43,507 nucleotides of DNA from Bacteroidota bacterium (GCA_013289395.1 JABCZY010000005.1:1-43507); one strand, 5' to 3'. Positions 32,011 to 40,912 are shown, counted from the first letter of the stretch. Notes: generated from the letters alone by a model not told the origin. A program made the numbers and translations.

Positions 32011-33492
32011 CTATTCCTGTACCAGTTTACGGGTATAAATACGGCCGCCTTCAATCACTTGTAAAATATAAATACCCGCTGCATTACCATTGAATTGGTA
32101 TGTATGCTGGCCGGCTTCCAGTGTATTTCCGTTTAAAAGCGTAGCAACCTTTTCGCCCATTATGTTGTAAACGGTCATGGTCACTTTGGTATCCTGAGTC
32201 AGGGTATAATTGATATGTACACTTCCATTGTAAGGATTAGGGAAAACGTCAAGGGTTGAATTAGTATTATCAATTGTATTTATACCAGTTGGCCCAGGGC
32301 AAGGGTTCTTAGGAGGAACAACTGAAGCACCACCTATTGTTTTGAAATCGCCGCCAAAAGACTGTAAGTACTCATTTGCAATAGTGTCATTATGTACTAT
32401 AACTGTATTTTCATCATTTTCTGCATCGGCCGATGAGGTCCAGTTATGTGAGCCGGTCAATACTTTAGGGTCATCACATGGTGCCGAAGGATTCACAATA
32501 ATATATTTATTATGGTAGAGACAGCTGCTGCTTACAAAACCATGAAAATTGGAACCAAGACCATTTGGTAATGTTGTTGTATATGGCGTATATGTTCCGC
32601 TGCTAAAGTTATCAAGTATGGCATACGCAGTTGCACCAGCCTTTTTCTGATTTACTATATCAGTTGCATCGGTGGTTTCAGTAAATGTAAACATGCCACA
32701 ATATTCATCAACTGTTGCTGCTCCTATAGTCTTTACTATTTGATTATTTACACTATCAGAAGGGCTGAAGTACAGATCAACCTTTGAGCCACCAATTGTA
32801 AAGTGATGTGTGCCAGAATTAGGTTTACATGAACCGAACTTACCTGTCCCTGCAGCGCCACCATGGGTAGTATCGCCCCACATGATATTAAATTCGTTGG
32901 TAAATGCCCGAGCCAATACTTTCGACTGGAATACAATGGCGTTATTATAATCGCAACTGCTCATTGCATCATCCCAGTCAGGTGAACCTGTCCATACCCA
33001 TACACCTGTACTATCGGAATTATATTCGTCAATAATTACAAACTTGTTATGCATAATGTTATACTTTTCGCTGCCATTACTGGTGGTACAACTTGCATTA
33101 CCCTGAGTAGGGCTAGTAAGTACAGGTATGGCGGCAGACATAGCCTTTACGCCAGTGTTCTTAGTTGAATAGCTATAGTCCTGTATGTAACGTATTTTAA
33201 CGCCTCTTTTATTAGCAGCAGTAATAGCAGTTTGAATTGGGTCTGTGCCGGATAAGGTTATCCATTCGTATTGGGCAATATCAATAGTGTACTTTGCCTT
33301 ATTTATATATGCCGCCAGGGTATCGAAAATAGAATTATTACAATACACTGCCTTTACACCAGTAGACAACGTATTATCGACTGGTTGTGTGAAATAGCAC
33401 TTAATGTAATTGGTGATATTTTTTTGAGCGGAAATGGAAGTTGTAATTGCGAAAAGTAAAATTACAACAGGGAGTAATTTTTTGTTTTTCAT
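32011..33492 (-). CDS. Exported phospholipase D-like protein with T9SS type A tail
   Basis: The start is set at the ATG at 33492 (MKNKKLLPVVILLFAITTSI, a signal peptide), 12 codons inside the longest frame. The 493-residue protein has two PLD-like halves. The first HKD motif is complete (H148-x-K150-x4-D155, followed by TGSPDWDD); the second keeps H327 and K329 but has N334 for Asp (YHNKYIIVNP, then TGSHNWT). The C-terminal type A sorting domain starts at about FPNPYNGSVH. Such proteins cut phosphodiester bonds in lipids or nucleic acids; the substrate here is unknown. Confidence 0.9.
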   Translation of the reverse strand: MKNKKLLPVVILLFAITTSISAQKNITNYIKCYFTQPVDNTLSTGVKAVYCNNSIFDTLAAYINKAKYTIDIAQYEWITLSGTDPIQTAITAANKRGVKIRYIQDYSYSTKNTGVKAMSAAIPVLTSPTQGNASCTTSNGSEKYNIMHNKFVIIDEYNSDSTGVWVWTGSPDWDDAMSSCDYNNAIVFQSKVLARAFTNEFNIMWGDTTHGGAAGTGKFGSCKPNSGTHHFTIGGSKVDLYFSPSDSVNNQIVKTIGAATVDEYCGMFTFTETTDATDIVNQKKAGATAYAILDNFSSGTYTPYTTTLPNGLGSNFHGFVSSSCLYHNKYIIVNPSAPCDDPKVLTGSHNWTSSADAENDENTVIVHNDTIANEYLQSFGGDFKTIGGASVVPPKNPCPGPTGINTIDNTNSTLDVFPNPYNGSVHINYTLTQDTKVTMTVYNIMGEKVATLLNGNTLEAGQHTYQFNGNAAGIYILQVIEGGRIYTRKLVQE

Positions 33493-33611
33493 ACAGGATT
33501 TATTGATTAATTTCACGAATATATGCACTTAACATAACATTTCCATAACATTTGAGAAATATTTAAGTGAAATGACTACCATATAAAAAACTAAAAGGTT
33601 TTAGTCTTTCA

Positions 33612-33750: not shown

Positions 33751-35067
33751 TTAAGCCACTCGGTTAAACGTTCCTTCTTCACTTAACCGTGTATTAAAAT
33801 TTACCTTGGGCAATTCAATAAAATGCCTGCGCACGTAACGGTATAGTTTGTTATAGCTAAGGTTTGATTTATGAAAAGTTTTAACCCAGTTATGTAATTC
33901 AGTAAGATTCATATCAGGATTGCTTTTCAACTTTTTATCGATTGAATTATGAAGACTGTCTGGTAGTTCAAGTTTTTTTCTCCCTCGTATTTTAATCTCC
34001 ATTAGGCCATTGAAACCTTCTTCTTTATACATTTTAAACCAGCGGTGAATACTGCCCACTGCAACACCCGATAATTTTGCCAATTCAATTTTAGTAAGCC
34101 CGGGCAATGTTTTTAGTGATAGCAGCATTTTTATTCGCTGTTTTTTTGACGCTGAATTTTTCATATATAGCTCCTTCAATTGCTGTGCGCTTTCTTTTAC
34201 CGGCATTTGTAAAACCCTTGCGGCATCCAGTTCCGATGCAAAATGCCTGTGTATGTATCTGTGCAGGGTATAGTATTTTATACCAGGTAAATATTTTCTG
34301 CGTATCTCTTTATAAAGTGCTGAGAAATTATTGAACTTGCCTTGCTGAAATTGTTTTTCAATATACTTAAGTACTTCCGGCGTAATAACCAATTCAAGAT
34401 TATATTTCAGCATTTCATCTATTCCACCTTGCCGGTATATGTTTGTCCACTTTAATATGCTACCATAACTAACGTTCAGTTCTTTAGCTAATTCAGCTCT
34501 CGATAGTTGCTCGTTCTGTTTTAGGGTCATCAGCATTTTTACCCGCGGCTTTATCCTTGGCAGGCATTTAGTTTGCAATGCTTCCAATTCAGTAATCGAT
34601 TCTTTTATTGAAAGCTCCAATATTCTTCCAATTTTAAGTTCTTTGCCAAAATAAAGGTTAAGGTATTTAATAAGGGTAGAATATTTTATTGAAGGAAAGT
34701 AGCGGTCTTTAACCCATTCATGTAGTTCTACATAGGTTTGAAATGGCTCTGCTTTATGTTGTTTTTCGATTGCCTCATAAACTTCAGGCGGAAACCCCAA
34801 TGTTCTTCTGTCAGGGCTTTTGTATTTTCCTCTTTTTATTTCGAGCAGTTTTTCAAGCCCGCCTTCTCGGTAAAGCTCAAGCCATTTAGTTATGCTGTTA
34901 TATGCTACATCAAGTTTTCTTGCCAGTTTTGGCTTTGTGGTTACCGGGTTTTTGGCCAGTAGTATTAATAGTTGAATACGAGGCTTCAGAAAATCTTTGC
35001 TTTCCTTATATAGTTCAGCTAGCTCGTCTGACGATTCTTTTATAGAAATGTGTTTAATAGGTTTCAT
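33751..35067 (-). CDS. Protein of three tandem transposase-type HTH modules
   Basis: A 438-residue protein made of three repeats of about 140 residues (about 8-150, 152-287, 289-420). Each begins with a KES..EL helix, then a basic helix-turn-helix (unit 1 TKPKLARKLDVAYNSITKW; unit 2 SRAELAKELNVSYGSILKW; unit 3 TKIELAKLSGVAVGSIHRW), YxxGG, and a second winged part ending in a Y..L.RY...HF motif. Single modules of this kind are the DNA-binding part of IS630-type transposases and related proteins, but there is no DDE catalytic domain. It is likely a DNA-binding protein with several contacts. No partner gene is apparent. Confidence 0.8.
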   Translation of the reverse strand: MKPIKHISIKESSDELAELYKESKDFLKPRIQLLILLAKNPVTTKPKLARKLDVAYNSITKWLELYREGGLEKLLEIKRGKYKSPDRRTLGFPPEVYEAIEKQHKAEPFQTYVELHEWVKDRYFPSIKYSTLIKYLNLYFGKELKIGRILELSIKESITELEALQTKCLPRIKPRVKMLMTLKQNEQLSRAELAKELNVSYGSILKWTNIYRQGGIDEMLKYNLELVITPEVLKYIEKQFQQGKFNNFSALYKEIRRKYLPGIKYYTLHRYIHRHFASELDAARVLQMPVKESAQQLKELYMKNSASKKQRIKMLLSLKTLPGLTKIELAKLSGVAVGSIHRWFKMYKEEGFNGLMEIKIRGRKKLELPDSLHNSIDKKLKSNPDMNLTELHNWVKTFHKSNLSYNKLYRYVRRHFIELPKVNFNTRLSEEGTFNRVA

Positions 35068-35139
35068 GCTATAGTAATTAATAGGGTATAGTTTTTCGCT
35101 CTATTGAATATGTTCATGCAGTTTAATGCACAGAAAGAA

Positions 35140-35179
35140 GTAACGCCGTACATAGCCTTAATGGCTACATTGGCGTTAC
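35140..35179 (-). terminator. Terminator at the end of the TonB-receptor operon
   Basis: The outer stem GTAACGCC/GGCGTTAC and inner stem TAGCC/GGCTA form one composite hairpin, followed on the minus strand by TTCTTTCTG. It begins 8 nt past the stop at 35187. Confidence 0.65.
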
Positions 35180-35186
35180 AATGAAA

Positions 35187-35720
35187 TTAACAAAGCGTTG
35201 GGGGATGCCAGATGCCGGCCGGCAATAATATGGAATAGAGGCTTCCTTCCTTTATGAATGTAGAAGAAACTTTCTCGTATGTTGAGAATTTGAATGTAAG
35301 ATCAATGGGCATATATTCTTTTGTGATCTTGCTGATAATATCTGTATCACTGCTATTTGATTGCTGCTGTGTAGGGAAGAATTTATCAGCAAACTTCTGA
35401 AATGCATTCACGATCTCGGTTTCCTCATTATCGCAATAGCAAGTAATTTTTATTCCTTCTTGTGTTTTTTCTATATCAATTATATCATATCGTTGGCCAT
35501 TAGTGCTGAATTCTTTATTGGCTTCAATCCACTGTATTGAGGCATATTGACTGTTTGTAAATAGAAAGCACTTTGTATCTAAAGTTTTGAAACCTTGATT
35601 TTGTATAAATACGGTTGCTTCGTACTTTGCCTTGTTCATTTTTGCCCAATACAGTAATTGAATACCGCCTAAGTAAAGCAGGAATAAAGATGTAAGAAAT
35701 ATGCAGGCAATTTTTTTCAT
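35187..35720 (-). CDS. Small membrane-anchored protein with GIWHPP..C tail (copy B)
   Basis: A 177-residue protein with an N-terminal hydrophobic segment (about 4-26) and a soluble domain, ending in PAGIWHPPTLC at the very C-terminus. It is a paralogue of 38392-38937: both share a SQY..I/L.W.E.NKEF..NGQ.YD core, a YCD..ET segment, an FP....S stretch, EY.P, and the WHPP tail with terminal Cys. The two copies flank the TonB-dependent receptor. The Cys/His-rich end hints at metal binding or a sorting/anchoring signal, but I do not recognise the family. A 12-bp hairpin lies between the receptor stop and this gene. Confidence 0.75.
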   Translation of the reverse strand: MKKIACIFLTSLFLLYLGGIQLLYWAKMNKAKYEATVFIQNQGFKTLDTKCFLFTNSQYASIQWIEANKEFSTNGQRYDIIDIEKTQEGIKITCYCDNEETEIVNAFQKFADKFFPTQQQSNSSDTDIISKITKEYMPIDLTFKFSTYEKVSSTFIKEGSLYSILLPAGIWHPPTLC

Positions 35721-35738
35721 GTGTTACAAATTAGATAG

Positions 35739-35774
35739 ACGCAAGCCCTGGGCTTTTAATGCCAGAGCTTGCGT
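35739..35774. other. Hairpin between the TonB receptor region and copy B
   Basis: The stem ACGCAAGC/GCTTGCGT continues into CTGG/CCAG after one C-A mismatch, with a 10-nt loop. It begins 10 nt after the receptor stop (minus strand, 35784) and ends 18 nt before the copy B start. It could be a partial terminator or processing site that lowers copy B expression. Confidence 0.6.
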
Positions 35775-35783
35775 TTAATTTGT

Positions 35784-38294
35784 TTAGTCAGCCTTTATCT
35801 CAGAATTCTTAGAAAGAGCGAAAGGTATTATAAGTTTAATACTAACGTTTCTGCCCATATTAAATACGCCTACACGGTTATCGTAAGGGTTATATGCATA
35901 GTATTTGAAACGACTCATATAATCCATATATCCCGTATTAAGCAGGTTATTACAAATTATATATAGTTCGCAAAACTTATGTCCGTTAGTAATAATATCT
36001 CCTCCAATACCTGCATTGAACAATGTGTAACCCGCAGTGGCCGCTTTACTTGCTGCATATATCTGCGGGCTATTAGCAATGTCAATGCCATTGTAAATAG
36101 CATATTGCTGGTAAATTTTATTTTGCTGCGATTCATTAAGTACTCCTATTTTGAAATAGGCATCTCTGATATTTTCGCCAATTTTATTTATATGGAATTT
36201 CAGGTCAGCTGTTACTCGTGTAGGAGGTACAAATGGTAATACATGTACCGAATCAGGAACATTTAATAAGCCACCATCAACCATACTTAATGATACATTC
36301 AGATCTACCCATGACAAGGTGGAAGGATGTACATCAAGCACTACTTCGCCACCTGATAAACGAGCCTGGCCTTGTGTATATTTATAAACAGGAGCAGGGC
36401 CTAAGCCAATACTGGTAAAGGTATTGTTAACAGAGTCGGGTATGCCTTTGGCATAAATAAAATCGTTAATGTTATTGATAAAATAATTGGCTTCAAATGT
36501 TACATCTTTACAGTTGATACCAAAAGTTCCGTCAATTTCGGTATTGGTTTCAGGCTTCAGCGAAGGGTCTCCAAGTTCCCAAACAACTGTACCATCATGC
36601 ACTCCGTTAGCGCCACATTCAGCAACATTAGGCGCTCTCCATCCTTGTGCTGCATTTACCTTTACATACACATTCTTGGTTATATCATAGGTTCCGCCAA
36701 TGCTCCACGACATTCCACTGAAATGAGAAGTAAAGCCGGTAAATTCATGAATTCCGCCCGGCGTGTTTGCCGCTACAGGTACTTGTGTTGAGTCAACCCA
36801 GTGGTCAATACCATTAAATGTGCGGGTGTCGTACCTAACTCCACCGCTTAAATAAAACTTATCGTTTATTTTTTCATTTGCTATTGCAAAGCCACCCATT
36901 GTAAGGTAATTGTAGTTTGGTATCAGCATAAATGTACCAAGGCTTTGCGATGTTTGTGATACACCATTCGATCCTACAGAAAAGTTAAAACCTCCTAGTT
37001 GCGGAGATACATAACGTAGGTCGTATGTAACAGCGTCTGAATAGTACCATATATCAGCTGAATTGGGCTGAGTAGGGTCGTTAAATTCCTGCCTTACATT
37101 TTTTTGATACGAGAAAATGGCGTTAATATGACCACCACCTACTGCTAAACTATTATCCCAAACAAGTTTATCGTGCTGAATGTGTTGGTATATAACAAAA
37201 GGGGTGTAGCTCATTTCTTCCTGCTTAGTTGCAATTTCGTAACTTGGTGCACCTCCATTCAGATCAGGATAAGAAACTTGCCTCATTTGTAAACCTGTAG
37301 CTGAGTCTCTTGCCCCATCAACAATACCGGTCCACATGCTGAAATAGCTTGCGTGTAATTGGCTGTATCCCCATTTACGATGTATGCCAATAGTTCCATC
37401 GGCATTAAAATTACTGAACTGACTGTTTATTACATAACCATCATATGGGTTCTGGTATGCATGTGCCATTATGTTATCAACACGTGCACTCCATGAAACA
37501 CCACCATTGGTAGTTCCTGCAATATGTGCCATATTATTTATCAGGCCATTATTTGTTTGATAATTAAATAACACATCGCCTTGTGTTTGGCCATTTGGTA
37601 AGGCCTGTTCAGGTATCAGGTTAAGCACACCTGCAATTGCATCTGACCCATATGCCAGTGATCCCGGGCCTTTTAATATTTCATACCTGTTTACTGCATC
37701 AGGGTCTGCTTCAATACCAAACTCATCAAACCAAGGTTGGTCAACTTGTTCAACTCCATCGTTTACGGTAAGTACACGGTTGTATCCTAAGCCACGTATA
37801 ACTGGCTTGGAAATGCTTTGACCATCTGTTATACCCCATACACCCGGAGTTTGAGCAACGGCGTCAATTACATTTGTTGAAGAATTTTCATTGAGATATT
37901 CTTTTGATACTTCAGTTATTGCTTGCGGTGTATGCTGCATGCTCGATGCTTTTGATGTACCTGTTACCACAACCTCGTGCTCTTCAACTTCCGATGCCGA
38001 TAATGCCATGTTGAAAGTTGTACTGCCATTAACAGTTACAGTTTGTTCCCTGTCAGCATATCCCAGCATTTGCACTTCAATCACATAGGTTCCTTTAGGC
38101 AGATCATTCATAGTATACGTTCCGGTTGCATCGGTTTGTGCGGCCTTTTTAAGGTCGGCTATATACACAACTGCACCCGGTAATCCGTTGCTATTGGTAG
38201 TATCAGTAATTTTTCCGGTTAATGTATTTTGCGCAAAAGCTGAAAGGCCTGCAAATACGAATGCAATAAGCAATAATATCTTAGATGTTCTCAT
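35784..38294 (-). CDS. TonB-dependent outer membrane receptor
   Basis: An 836-residue receptor: signal peptide (1-22), a carboxypeptidase-regulatory-like beta-sandwich (about 24-105; GKITDTTNSNGLPGAVVYI), the plug (about 115-225; TPQAITEVSKEYL, IRGLGYNRVLTVNDGVEQ, RYEILKGPGSLAYGSDAIAG), then the beta-barrel ending NVSIKLIIPFA. It uses TonB energy to import a ligand too large or scarce for porins. The ligand is not readable from the sequence. It lies between two paralogous GIWHPP-tail proteins and downstream of a family-5 solute-binding lipoprotein. Confidence 0.93.
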   Translation of the reverse strand: MRTSKILLLIAFVFAGLSAFAQNTLTGKITDTTNSNGLPGAVVYIADLKKAAQTDATGTYTMNDLPKGTYVIEVQMLGYADREQTVTVNGSTTFNMALSASEVEEHEVVVTGTSKASSMQHTPQAITEVSKEYLNENSSTNVIDAVAQTPGVWGITDGQSISKPVIRGLGYNRVLTVNDGVEQVDQPWFDEFGIEADPDAVNRYEILKGPGSLAYGSDAIAGVLNLIPEQALPNGQTQGDVLFNYQTNNGLINNMAHIAGTTNGGVSWSARVDNIMAHAYQNPYDGYVINSQFSNFNADGTIGIHRKWGYSQLHASYFSMWTGIVDGARDSATGLQMRQVSYPDLNGGAPSYEIATKQEEMSYTPFVIYQHIQHDKLVWDNSLAVGGGHINAIFSYQKNVRQEFNDPTQPNSADIWYYSDAVTYDLRYVSPQLGGFNFSVGSNGVSQTSQSLGTFMLIPNYNYLTMGGFAIANEKINDKFYLSGGVRYDTRTFNGIDHWVDSTQVPVAANTPGGIHEFTGFTSHFSGMSWSIGGTYDITKNVYVKVNAAQGWRAPNVAECGANGVHDGTVVWELGDPSLKPETNTEIDGTFGINCKDVTFEANYFINNINDFIYAKGIPDSVNNTFTSIGLGPAPVYKYTQGQARLSGGEVVLDVHPSTLSWVDLNVSLSMVDGGLLNVPDSVHVLPFVPPTRVTADLKFHINKIGENIRDAYFKIGVLNESQQNKIYQQYAIYNGIDIANSPQIYAASKAATAGYTLFNAGIGGDIITNGHKFCELYIICNNLLNTGYMDYMSRFKYYAYNPYDNRVGVFNMGRNVSIKLIIPFALSKNSEIKAD

Positions 38295-38335
38295 AGTATA
38301 TATAATTTGAATTTGGTGCTAATAAAATCTTTTTC

Positions 38336-38381
38336 AATAGCCACAGGCTATTAAAAAATTACATTCCAAAACAAAGGAATG
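38336..38381. other. Two hairpins in the leader of the TonB receptor
   Basis: AATAGCC-ACA-GGCTATT (38336-38352) and CATTCC/GGAATG (38362-38367 with 38376-38381) lie between copy A stop and the receptor ATG at 38294. Neither is followed by a T tract on the minus strand, so they are more likely mRNA structures or operators than terminators. No known riboswitch is recognised. Confidence 0.45.
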
Positions 38382-38391
38382 CGAAGTAAAA

Positions 38392-38937
38392 TTAGCAGCA
38401 GGAAGGGGGGTGCCATATACCTTTATCAGGGCATATGGAATGAATATTTACGGTGTGTAAATATTGCTTAACGTAAGTAACATCGGGCGTTACTGTGTGA
38501 ACTATATTAAGCGGAATGTATTCTTTCTGGAATGCAGTAAGGATGCTTTCAGTATGTTTATCGGACTTATTATTTGAAGGGAAAAGTTGTTTAACAAAAT
38601 TGTTCAAGGCCTTTACCCACTGTGTTTCGTTCTTATCACAATATACTTCGGCAACGTATTCAGTATTGCTTTTAGTTATACTAACCACATCATATAATTG
38701 ACCATTACTTACAAACTCTTTATTTCCTTCTGCCCATTTTAGTTTATTGTATTCAGACTGAGGGAACGTGATCTTTTCTAAAACAGTTTCTTTACTCTTC
38801 ATTGCTACAGATGCTTCATACCTGGCATCGGCAGTTATCATAAAATAAATAAGGCGATATCCTGCAAAGTAATATACCATGGCAAACAACAAGGTTGCTG
38901 CTACGGTACGAATCCATGTAGGAGTGTGTTTAAGCAC
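38392..38937 (-). CDS. Small membrane-anchored protein with GIWHPP..C tail (copy A)
   Basis: The start is taken as the GTG at 38935-38937, one base after the stop of the solute-binding lipoprotein, because it gives 181 residues with a clean N-terminal membrane segment (about 9-33), close to copy B (177). A longer frame to 39018 would overlap the lipoprotein gene by 80 bases. The protein ends PDKGIWHPPSCC. The shared core with copy B is described there. The junction suggests translational coupling to the solute-binding gene, and the receptor gene follows after 97 nt. Confidence 0.75.
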   Translation of the reverse strand: MLKHTPTWIRTVAATLLFAMVYYFAGYRLIYFMITADARYEASVAMKSKETVLEKITFPQSEYNKLKWAEGNKEFVSNGQLYDVVSITKSNTEYVAEVYCDKNETQWVKALNNFVKQLFPSNNKSDKHTESILTAFQKEYIPLNIVHTVTPDVTYVKQYLHTVNIHSICPDKGIWHPPSCC

Positions 38938-38938
38938 G

Positions 38939-40729
38939 TTATTTTTTCTTAGTAGAAGAAGAGTCCGCCATTTTGTTCTCAGCAGTTTTTTCATCAATAT
39001 ACACAGCTGAAACATCAAGGTAATTCATAGAATTGGTATGAAGATCTTTAACAGCCCAATGTGTAAGGCTATAATTCTGGTCATACCAAAGCACCATTAC
39101 GGGTGCATCATTTATTGCCATCTGTTCAGCTTGCTGATAGTATTTATACGATGTCTTCAAAGAATCTGAAGTGCGGCCCATCTCAACCAGCTTATCGTAT
39201 TCGCTGTTTTTGTAACGTGTTATATTATAATACGAAGGTTGTCCTATTGAATCAGGAACATTGGAACTGAGGAATAACATTAGAAAATCAAGTGGGTTTG
39301 GATAATCAGCGGTCCAGCCAACGCCGATCATTTGAAATTTTGAATACCGTTCATCCTGAAGCTTTTGTGCAAAAGGAGCAATGTTGAAGTTTATATGCAC
39401 ATTCAGGTTAGTTAACAATTCTTTTTGAACTTCTAAGGCAACACTTGTATTAATTCCGCCACCATCATTAATTTCAAGTGTTATGGTAGGGAATTTTTTC
39501 CCATCAGGGAATCCGGCATCACTGAGTTGTTTCTTAGCGACCTCAATATTCAGCGAATCTCCTTTTATATTATTAATGTCGTAGTTATTTTCAGGCTTAT
39601 CAGCATACATAAACGAAGGTGGCGTAACACCATGTGTACCCGGTGCAAATGCTTCACCCTGCAAAACCTCGCTCACAATTTTATTACGGTCAATAGCAAG
39701 GTTAAATGCTTTACGAACACGTATATCATTAAACGGAGCAGTCGATAAGTTAAATGCGTAATACTTCGTTGACATTACAGGAACCCGTGATAATAAGTAT
39801 TTAGGTGGCTTATGTTGAAAATCTGAGATCTGTTCCTCAACCATTTTATCAACTTGTGTAGAAGGTACACTAGCTACGTAATCGATCTTTTTTTCCTGGA
39901 AGGCTTTAAACTCCTCAGTTCTGCTCGGAATGAAGCTAATTATAACAGAATCGAGAAAGGGCAACTGGTTTCCAATGCTATCGTGCCTGAAGTAATTTGG
40001 ATTAGCTGTCAGTATAAGGTTTGCTGTATCGCTAACAGGGCCGCAAATGAATGCGCCGGTACCAACATGCATGTCTTTACCGTATTTCTCAACGGCTTCT
40101 TTGGCAATAACAAATCCACCAACCCCTGCAAGCATGTTAAGAAAAACAGGGTTCTTTTTTATAAGCTTTAACTCAATGGTTGAGTCATTTACTACTGTTA
40201 CTCCTTTAATACCCGAAGATGGTGTGCCTTTTTTGCTGCTTTCAAAATACTCGTCTGCACCTACCACATTATCTTTAAACGAAATTGAATAAACAACGTT
40301 ATCAGGCGTTGCGGTACAAAGCTTTTCCATTGAATACTTAAAATCGTTGGCAGTTACTTTTCGGCCTTTACCATTACTAAAGCACTGATCGTCCTGGAAG
40401 GTCACATCGGTACGGAGGTGAAAGGTATATACGGTTCCGCTTGCATCCAGGCTCCAGCTCTTGGCAATATCAGGTGAAATAGCAAGATCTCTTGGGTCAA
40501 GCTTTACAAGGCCATCATATATCTGACAAGCAACATTATAGGATACATTATCGAAAATATAATAAGGGTATAGATTAAGAACTGGGGTATTATTGTTTAA
40601 ATGCAAGGTTCCGCCATAGAAGCGATTGCCTTTGGCAACTTTTTTCGCGCCCTTGCCTCCCAATTGTTTGCACGAATAGGTGAAACATAAAGCGCAGGTT
40701 ATACCAATTAGTAATAAAAATCTTTTCAT
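38939..40729 (-). CDS. Family 5 extracellular solute-binding lipoprotein (OppA/DppA-like)
   Basis: The start is set at the ATG at 40729, giving a lipoprotein signal MKRFLLLIGITCALCFTYSC (Cys20); the frame to 40804 reads through the promoter. The 596-residue protein has the SBP_bac_5 layout: YDGLVKLDP, IAKSWSLDASGTVYTFHLR, GTGAFICGP, VRKAFNLAIDR and a long C-terminal lobe. Relatives bind oligopeptides, nickel or other small ligands for ABC importers. No permease or ATPase gene is adjacent; instead copy A, the TonB receptor and copy B follow on the same strand. Confidence 0.92.
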   Translation of the reverse strand: MKRFLLLIGITCALCFTYSCKQLGGKGAKKVAKGNRFYGGTLHLNNNTPVLNLYPYYIFDNVSYNVACQIYDGLVKLDPRDLAISPDIAKSWSLDASGTVYTFHLRTDVTFQDDQCFSNGKGRKVTANDFKYSMEKLCTATPDNVVYSISFKDNVVGADEYFESSKKGTPSSGIKGVTVVNDSTIELKLIKKNPVFLNMLAGVGGFVIAKEAVEKYGKDMHVGTGAFICGPVSDTANLILTANPNYFRHDSIGNQLPFLDSVIISFIPSRTEEFKAFQEKKIDYVASVPSTQVDKMVEEQISDFQHKPPKYLLSRVPVMSTKYYAFNLSTAPFNDIRVRKAFNLAIDRNKIVSEVLQGEAFAPGTHGVTPPSFMYADKPENNYDINNIKGDSLNIEVAKKQLSDAGFPDGKKFPTITLEINDGGGINTSVALEVQKELLTNLNVHINFNIAPFAQKLQDERYSKFQMIGVGWTADYPNPLDFLMLFLSSNVPDSIGQPSYYNITRYKNSEYDKLVEMGRTSDSLKTSYKYYQQAEQMAINDAPVMVLWYDQNYSLTHWAVKDLHTNSMNYLDVSAVYIDEKTAENKMADSSSTKKK

Positions 40730-40754
40730 AGAATATAATACGGGGTATTTTATG

Positions 40755-40762
40755 CAAAAATA
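40755..40762 (-). promoter_or_regulatory. -7 box TATTTTTG for the solute-binding/TonB operon
   Basis: The minus-strand TATTTTTG fits TAnnTTTG and lies 25 nt upstream of the ATG at 40729. An identical box at 40796-40803 is a second candidate. Confidence 0.45.
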
Positions 40763-40912
40763 GCATTCGCCCCTATAATAGTATACAAAAATAGTGATTT
40801 TCATGGGTTAAAAGCAAAAAAATAAAAAACTCTTTCAAATATTGAATTAAGTTGTTAATATTGCACCGCGAAAAATTTGAGGACCAGACGTTAGTTGGAA
40901 TAATAGTTTTTC

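Follow-up and report, generated by a model that had tools for sequence, protein, structure and literature searches.

Two small membrane-anchored proteins encoded by a 43,507-nucleotide stretch of Bacteroidota DNA (GCA_013289395.1, JABCZY010000005.1:1-43507; this whole stretch is referred to as the window) are probably exported, cis-acting nascent-chain regulators that control the next gene through translation arrest. Their genes, designated leader genes A and B, lie on the minus strand in the order SBP_bac_5, B, TonB-dependent receptor (TBDR), A, and triple helix-turn-helix (HTH) protein (Table 1), and both belong to an unnamed family that is widespread in Bacteroidota. The family itself, its C-terminal tail, a spacer of fixed length, an upstream-only position, an enrichment of RNA pairing, and a parallel in the unrelated family DUF6660 are directly supported by the data reported here.

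With A as the query, B was retrieved at an E value of 2e-28 and 32% identity over residues 7 to 177. This bears out a preliminary description of the two proteins as a paralogous pair of 177 and 181 residues, with GIWHPP..C ends (GIWHPPTLC in A and GIWHPPSCC in B), flanking a TBDR. That description did not recognize the family, and indeed neither A and B nor 43 members taken together matched any Pfam or NCBIfam model. Among the 43 members there was no match to PF11162 (DUF2946), whose CXXC is absent here, with only one Cys conserved, or to PF20365 (DUF6660), to which the likeness is limited to the tail. Sequence and fold searches of the PDB returned nothing credible for the family. Relatives turned up in 35 of 100 related genomes when a single sequence served as the query, and a profile search located the family in 62 of the 296 genomes sampled from the phylum, or about one-fifth. 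In named genomes, a search for the core motif yielded 203 confirmed relatives, and the best 80 include Polaribacter, Pontibacter, Flavobacterium, and Bizionia as well as Ignavibacteria and one KSB1 genome. The 209 members analyzed below comprise 125 from the single-sequence and profile searches and 84 from the named genomes, the latter collected with a pattern confined to the core. Nearly all family members have a hydrophobic N terminus.

The most constant feature of the family is a Pro-Pro (PP) pair close to the C terminus. It falls within the last ten residues in 121 of the 125 members, compared with 6 of 1,144 other genes at the same loci; in the remaining four it lies 10 to 21 residues ahead of the annotated end, and all 125 have it within the last 23. 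In the named-genome set, the corresponding figures are 79 of 84 within the last ten residues and 83 of 84 within 25. The two PP columns carry 4.6 bits of information each, while the preceding 30 columns average 0.3 to 0.65 bits, and the pair typically sits 2 to 5 codons upstream of the stop codon. The expectation that the tail would be conserved across homologues thus holds for the nearly universal PP and fails for Trp, His, and the terminal Cys. The WHPP form with a terminal Cys is the version of the window's own lineage, in which most members carry W, H, and C; elsewhere in the family S/T, P, and E/K/R/D mostly stand in their places, and the common form is S/T-P-P-P-E/K/R/D (SPPP or TPPP). 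The residues ahead of the last PP are mostly SP, TP, WH, or VP and do not make up a RAPP-like motif (R/Q/H-A/G-P-P). All four Pro codons are used in the tail, with a usage equal to that of background genes, which argues for selection on the peptide; a conserved nucleic acid motif was rejected on the same grounds.

For A, AlphaFold2 predicted with confidence a membrane helix (residues 2 to 41) and a core of strands and helices (residues 49 to 114), with pLDDT values mostly of 84 to 97, followed from about residue 137 by coil with values mostly of 52 to 62. Gene B likewise encodes an N-terminal membrane anchor, a periplasmic core, a spacer, and then the WHPP tail. A Polaribacter homologue was predicted to have the same core, an additional helix reaching residue 154, and coil beyond. 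The distance to the PP is nearly constant, at 37 residues (SD, 2.1) from the end of the core (Tyr/Phe at position 136) and 76 residues (SD, 2.9) from Asp97. The ribosome exit tunnel holds a chain of about this spacer length. A spacer that is fixed in length, unconserved in sequence, and about as long as the tunnel is what an arrest peptide would need. The conserved residues E70, D79, C94, D97, and E100 are candidates for sensing a signal.

Family members occupy a consistent position. The next gene encodes a TBDR in 162 of the 209 cases, in agreement with the preliminary description, which had proposed a profile search with inspection of neighbors as a check on the receptor association. In 41 cases the next gene is another gene on the same strand, in 1 it is on the opposite strand, and in 5 the contig ends. 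A TBDR lies immediately upstream of the leader in only 4 of the 209 loci, and all four of these then have another same-strand gene downstream. A same-strand next gene begins within 350 nt in 197 of 204 members, compared with 927 of 1,376 other genes. About one-fifth of the members precede non-TBDR genes with the PP tail unchanged. Among these are genes for CMD proteins, for haloperoxidase-like PAP2 proteins, for the HTH protein, and for Phenol_MetA_deg outer membrane proteins that have PAP2 enzymes encoded after them. Loci with Phenol_MetA_deg or haloperoxidase-like PAP2 neighbors (L148, L149, L152, L159 to L177, and L181 to L185) have no obvious signal in common. Some TBDR cassettes continue with genes for an IsdE/BtuF-like binding protein and an ATP-binding cassette importer, or with PepSY_TM. 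The content of these operons suggests iron, heme, or another metal as the signal, which is a guess rather than a proof. No cobalamin or other riboswitch was found upstream of the FecBCD-type operons. Promoter-like sites were rare, occurring upstream of the leader in 20 of 188 cases and in the gap in 8 of 192, a comparison that is not decisive. Two or three leader genes lie close together at L043 (8934 to 15223), L125, L192, and L210; at L043 they form two leader-TBDR cassettes in tandem, whose gaps contain similar hairpins, an arrangement expected for cis action.

A second family offers a parallel. DUF6660 proteins (PF20365) have an export signal and a short Cys-rich core (CSPFCxCxCC), are unrelated to the leader family, and show no sequence similarity to it beyond the tail in a Pfam scan. 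All 36 clear members carry a PP tail, mostly in the form W-x-PP (IWQPPK-x), with one VWHPPSIV, and the last Cys lies 41 ± 1.5 residues before the PP. The downstream gene mostly encodes a CusA/CzcA-type resistance-nodulation-division (RND) pump (27 classified by script and 7 more read by the N-terminal or PDVTNN signature); in two cases (L076 and L269) it reads as a TBDR. Hairpin pairing between stop and start, measured in 13 cases, was 7.2, compared with 1.2 in shuffled sequences. DUF6660 (loci L068 to L080 and L267 to L294) was found in 35 of 198 genomes, a share similar to that of the leader family, and no paper on it was found in the literature searched. We consider DUF6660 likely to be a metal-sensing arrest leader.

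These results bear on the proposal that the proteins work with the receptor. An anchored periplasmic protein acting in trans, whose tail docks on the plug or N-terminal domain of the TBDR or aids its assembly, would fit the predominance of TBDRs as the next gene (162 of 209), the strong conservation of the tail, and the folded periplasmic core predicted by AlphaFold2. We regard it as unlikely. The leaders stand only upstream, neither the exclusive association with TBDRs nor the free gene order that characterizes an accessory or docking protein was found, and the roughly one-fifth that precede other genes have tails identical in kind. The spacer is fixed in length and not in sequence, and a W-x-PP end ahead of RND pumps cannot be explained by receptor docking. 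The unconserved spacer of fixed length, the constancy of PP alone, the upstream-only position, the non-TBDR neighbors, and DUF6660 point instead to a ribosome arrest motif.

The RNA between the leader stop and the next start provides further evidence. In the predicted structure between B and the TBDR gene, the last codons or stop of B pair with the pre-start region, and the 3′ arm ends 19 nt ahead of the ATG at 38294. The structure downstream of A has an outer stem in which the last codons or stop of A are paired with the region ahead of the HTH gene. Across the family, pairing of the stop zone with the 30 nt that precede the downstream start averaged 6.8, compared with 3.4 in distance-limited controls (P = 6e-5); in the named set, pairing between stop and start zones was 6.7, compared with 3.3 in controls (P = 3e-5). 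A ribosome modeled on the PP opened the zone from −30 to +3 by 0.070, compared with 0.020 in controls (P = 9e-7). A partner of the receptor leaves this pairing unexplained. The hairpins, the upstream-only position, and the usual placement of PP 2 to 5 codons before the stop would also suit cis control without arrest, in which the leader is an open reading frame for translational coupling or attenuation and PP merely slows termination near the stop, timing the hairpin. This explanation is improbable in our view, since it makes a conserved exported core of 110 residues and a tunnel-length spacer unnecessary. A metal-binding or lipid- or thiol-anchored WHPP..C tail, which the preliminary description had considered alongside docking, might instead belong to a stand-alone periplasmic metal protein. 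This reading accords with the Trp, His, and terminal Cys of most of the window's lineage and was rejected as very improbable because in most family members W/H/C give way to S/T, P, and E/K/R/D, leaving only PP constant.

Arrest regulation, as we envisage it, would proceed as follows. The N-terminal helix would send the nascent protein into the Sec pathway through the translocon, so that the core of about 110 residues emerges outside, where it would fold or bind its signal. Once the core is clear of the ribosome, the C-terminal Pro-Pro would reach the peptidyl-transferase center and translation would pause. Whether the pause persists may depend on the state of the core or on its export, for example on binding of a ligand related to the transporter encoded downstream. 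The paused ribosome would occupy the 5′ arm of the stop-to-start RNA structure, and pausing may either free the next start or shield the RNA from Rho, so that the gene downstream is turned on. The TBDR gene would be under the control of B and the HTH gene under that of A. We infer the arrest itself, the sign of control, and the ligand, guessed from operon content to be iron, heme, or another metal; by analogy to the CruR leader, arrest would be the on state and the ligand would turn expression off, and the CutF leader behaves in the opposite way, so that either sign is possible.

The leaders resemble known arrest leaders in being small exported or membrane proteins that are encoded on the same strand directly upstream of the next gene and have a potential stalling motif near the C terminus. 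The nearest known kind comprises CruR, CutF, and RAPP-type peptides. CruR (DUF2946; Bordetella pertussis bp2923, upstream of the TBDR gene bfrG) is also a small exported leader directly before a TBDR gene, with a PP motif a few residues from the C terminus, a fixed spacing from sensor to tail (45 residues from CXXC to RAPP, within one or two residues; PMC9426467), and intergenic control. It differs in its RAPP tail, its CXXC copper motif, its length of 145 residues, and the Rho-dependent termination shown for it. The leader family has WHPP or PPP, no CXXC, a larger folded core, stop-to-start hairpins, and no match to DUF2946. According to an EMBO J survey (PMC12992588), arrest has been demonstrated for CruR, and leaders with RAPP or RGPP precede TBDR genes across Gram-negative bacteria; the leader family falls outside these motifs. 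CutF of Rhodobacter capsulatus (upstream of cutO) is an exported nascent-chain sensor with a Pro-rich C terminus and a stem-loop that masks the ribosome-binding site of the next gene, comparable to the structures described above; it differs in its CxxxC copper site, its multicopper oxidase target, and its sequence family, and its copper response is opposite to that of CruR (PMC9973294). SecM, ApdA, ApdP, and MifM are likewise exported or membrane leaders that regulate the gene after them by means of an arrest motif at the C terminus (PMC10987492, PMC11669330), but their targets are Sec/YidC genes, they sense export, and several have RAPP-like motifs. The IW-PP context of the arrest peptide FXXYXIWPPP (PMC11669330) resembles the IWHPP and IWQPP tails, although that peptide is artificial. 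DUF6660 shares the W-x-PP tail, a spacer of about 41 residues, the stop-to-start hairpin, and a transporter gene directly downstream; it differs in its short Cys-rich core and in having RND pumps as neighbors at most loci. We keep the family apart from the DUF2946 and RAPP classes because it is not DUF2946 and has neither RAPP nor CXXC.

Several observations weigh against arrest regulation. The tail is neither RAPP nor RGPP, and in most of the family PPP is preceded by S or T, which stalls weakly in Escherichia coli reporters (PMC4176338). The Pro-rich tail of CutF alone did not stall a reporter (PMC9973294). Searches brought to light neither a ligand pocket nor a known fold. About half of the loci are without a strong stop-to-start hairpin. 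With a narrower zone (−16 to +3) and gaps of 15 to 160 nt, the footprint model gave no gain over controls, so that the ribosome-opening result depends on the zone chosen, and a search for covariation in the region between B and the TBDR gene in five close relatives of B yielded no consensus fold; because of these two results, we consider the RNA evidence overall to be moderate. The P values assume independent loci, and the 125- and 84-member sets overlap by at least two contigs (L205/L047 and L196/L059), which agree in both length and tail.

Table 1 Features of the leader locus in the window
Feature	Position	Strand	Remarks
Triple HTH protein gene	33751..35067	−	438 aa; HTH_23/HTH_29/HTH_32; candidate target of A
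A-HTH RNA structure	35097..35197	−	z = −6.04; 0 of 200 shuffles as good
Leader gene A	35187..35720	−	177 aa; architecture as in B; HTH gene downstream
A tail WHPPTLC	35190..35210	−	Candidate arrest motif
A spacer, residues 137 to 172	35205..35312	−	Unconserved; predicted disordered; about one ribosome tunnel length
Strong hairpin, TBDR stop to A start	35726..35783	−	z = −6.65; possible terminator or attenuator between cassettes
TBDR gene	35784..38294	−	836 aa; Pfam Plug, TonB_dep_Rec_b-barrel, CarbopepD_reg_2; candidate target of B
B-TBDR RNA structure	38314..38400	−	z = −5.31; 0 of 200 shuffles as good
Leader gene B	38392..38937	−	181 aa; GTG start; TBDR directly downstream
B tail WHPPSCC	38395..38415	−	Candidate ribosome arrest motif; PP conserved family-wide
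SBP_bac_5 (OppA-like) lipoprotein gene	38939..40804	−	First gene of B-TBDR operon

The window holds two neighboring cassettes, each with a leader and a target gene, rather than a duplication around one receptor as had been supposed. This view follows from the orthologues of A in the congeners L031 and L032 (54% and 51% identity), which precede the same HTH gene as A does and have no TBDR before them. A single transcript headed by the OppA-like lipoprotein is plausible as far as SBP_bac_5, B, and the TBDR are concerned, since 1 nt separates the SBP_bac_5 stop (38941 to 38939) from the GTG of B at 38937; its extension into A is uncertain given the strong hairpin in between. An SBP_bac_5 gene likewise precedes the leader-TBDR pair at L035, L036, L038, and L039. 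The top NCBIfam model for the TBDR in the window was TIGR01785 (hemin receptor family), with a score below the cutoff. The HTH protein, which follows A and both of its orthologues in the genus (8781 to 10172 in L031), consists of three repeated transposase-like HTH units. Nearby (32011 to 33528) is the gene for a protein that has a PLD domain and a tail for type IX secretion.

Bacteroidota take up nutrients chiefly through TBDRs, and what is known of TBDR regulation concerns mainly sigma/anti-sigma pairs, riboswitches, and small RNAs. Control of nutrient receptors by arrest leaders, if real, would be widespread in this phylum and apparently undescribed. We lean toward the broader hypothesis that exported sensors of at least two unrelated families, the leader family and DUF6660, converged in Bacteroidota on one general device for nascent-chain sensing beyond the RAPP class, with TonB receptors, metal efflux pumps, and other surface genes as targets. 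The proposed shared anatomy is an export signal, a sensor core, a tunnel-length spacer, an arrest tail of the W-x-PP or PPP type, and an mRNA hairpin from stop to start. If the arrest hypothesis is true, these proteins would be a new class of regulator that senses the periplasm while its chain is still bound to the ribosome and acts only in cis. Two uncharacterized families would gain a testable function, arrest tails would extend beyond RAPP, and annotators would be cautioned against calling such proteins receptor subunits.
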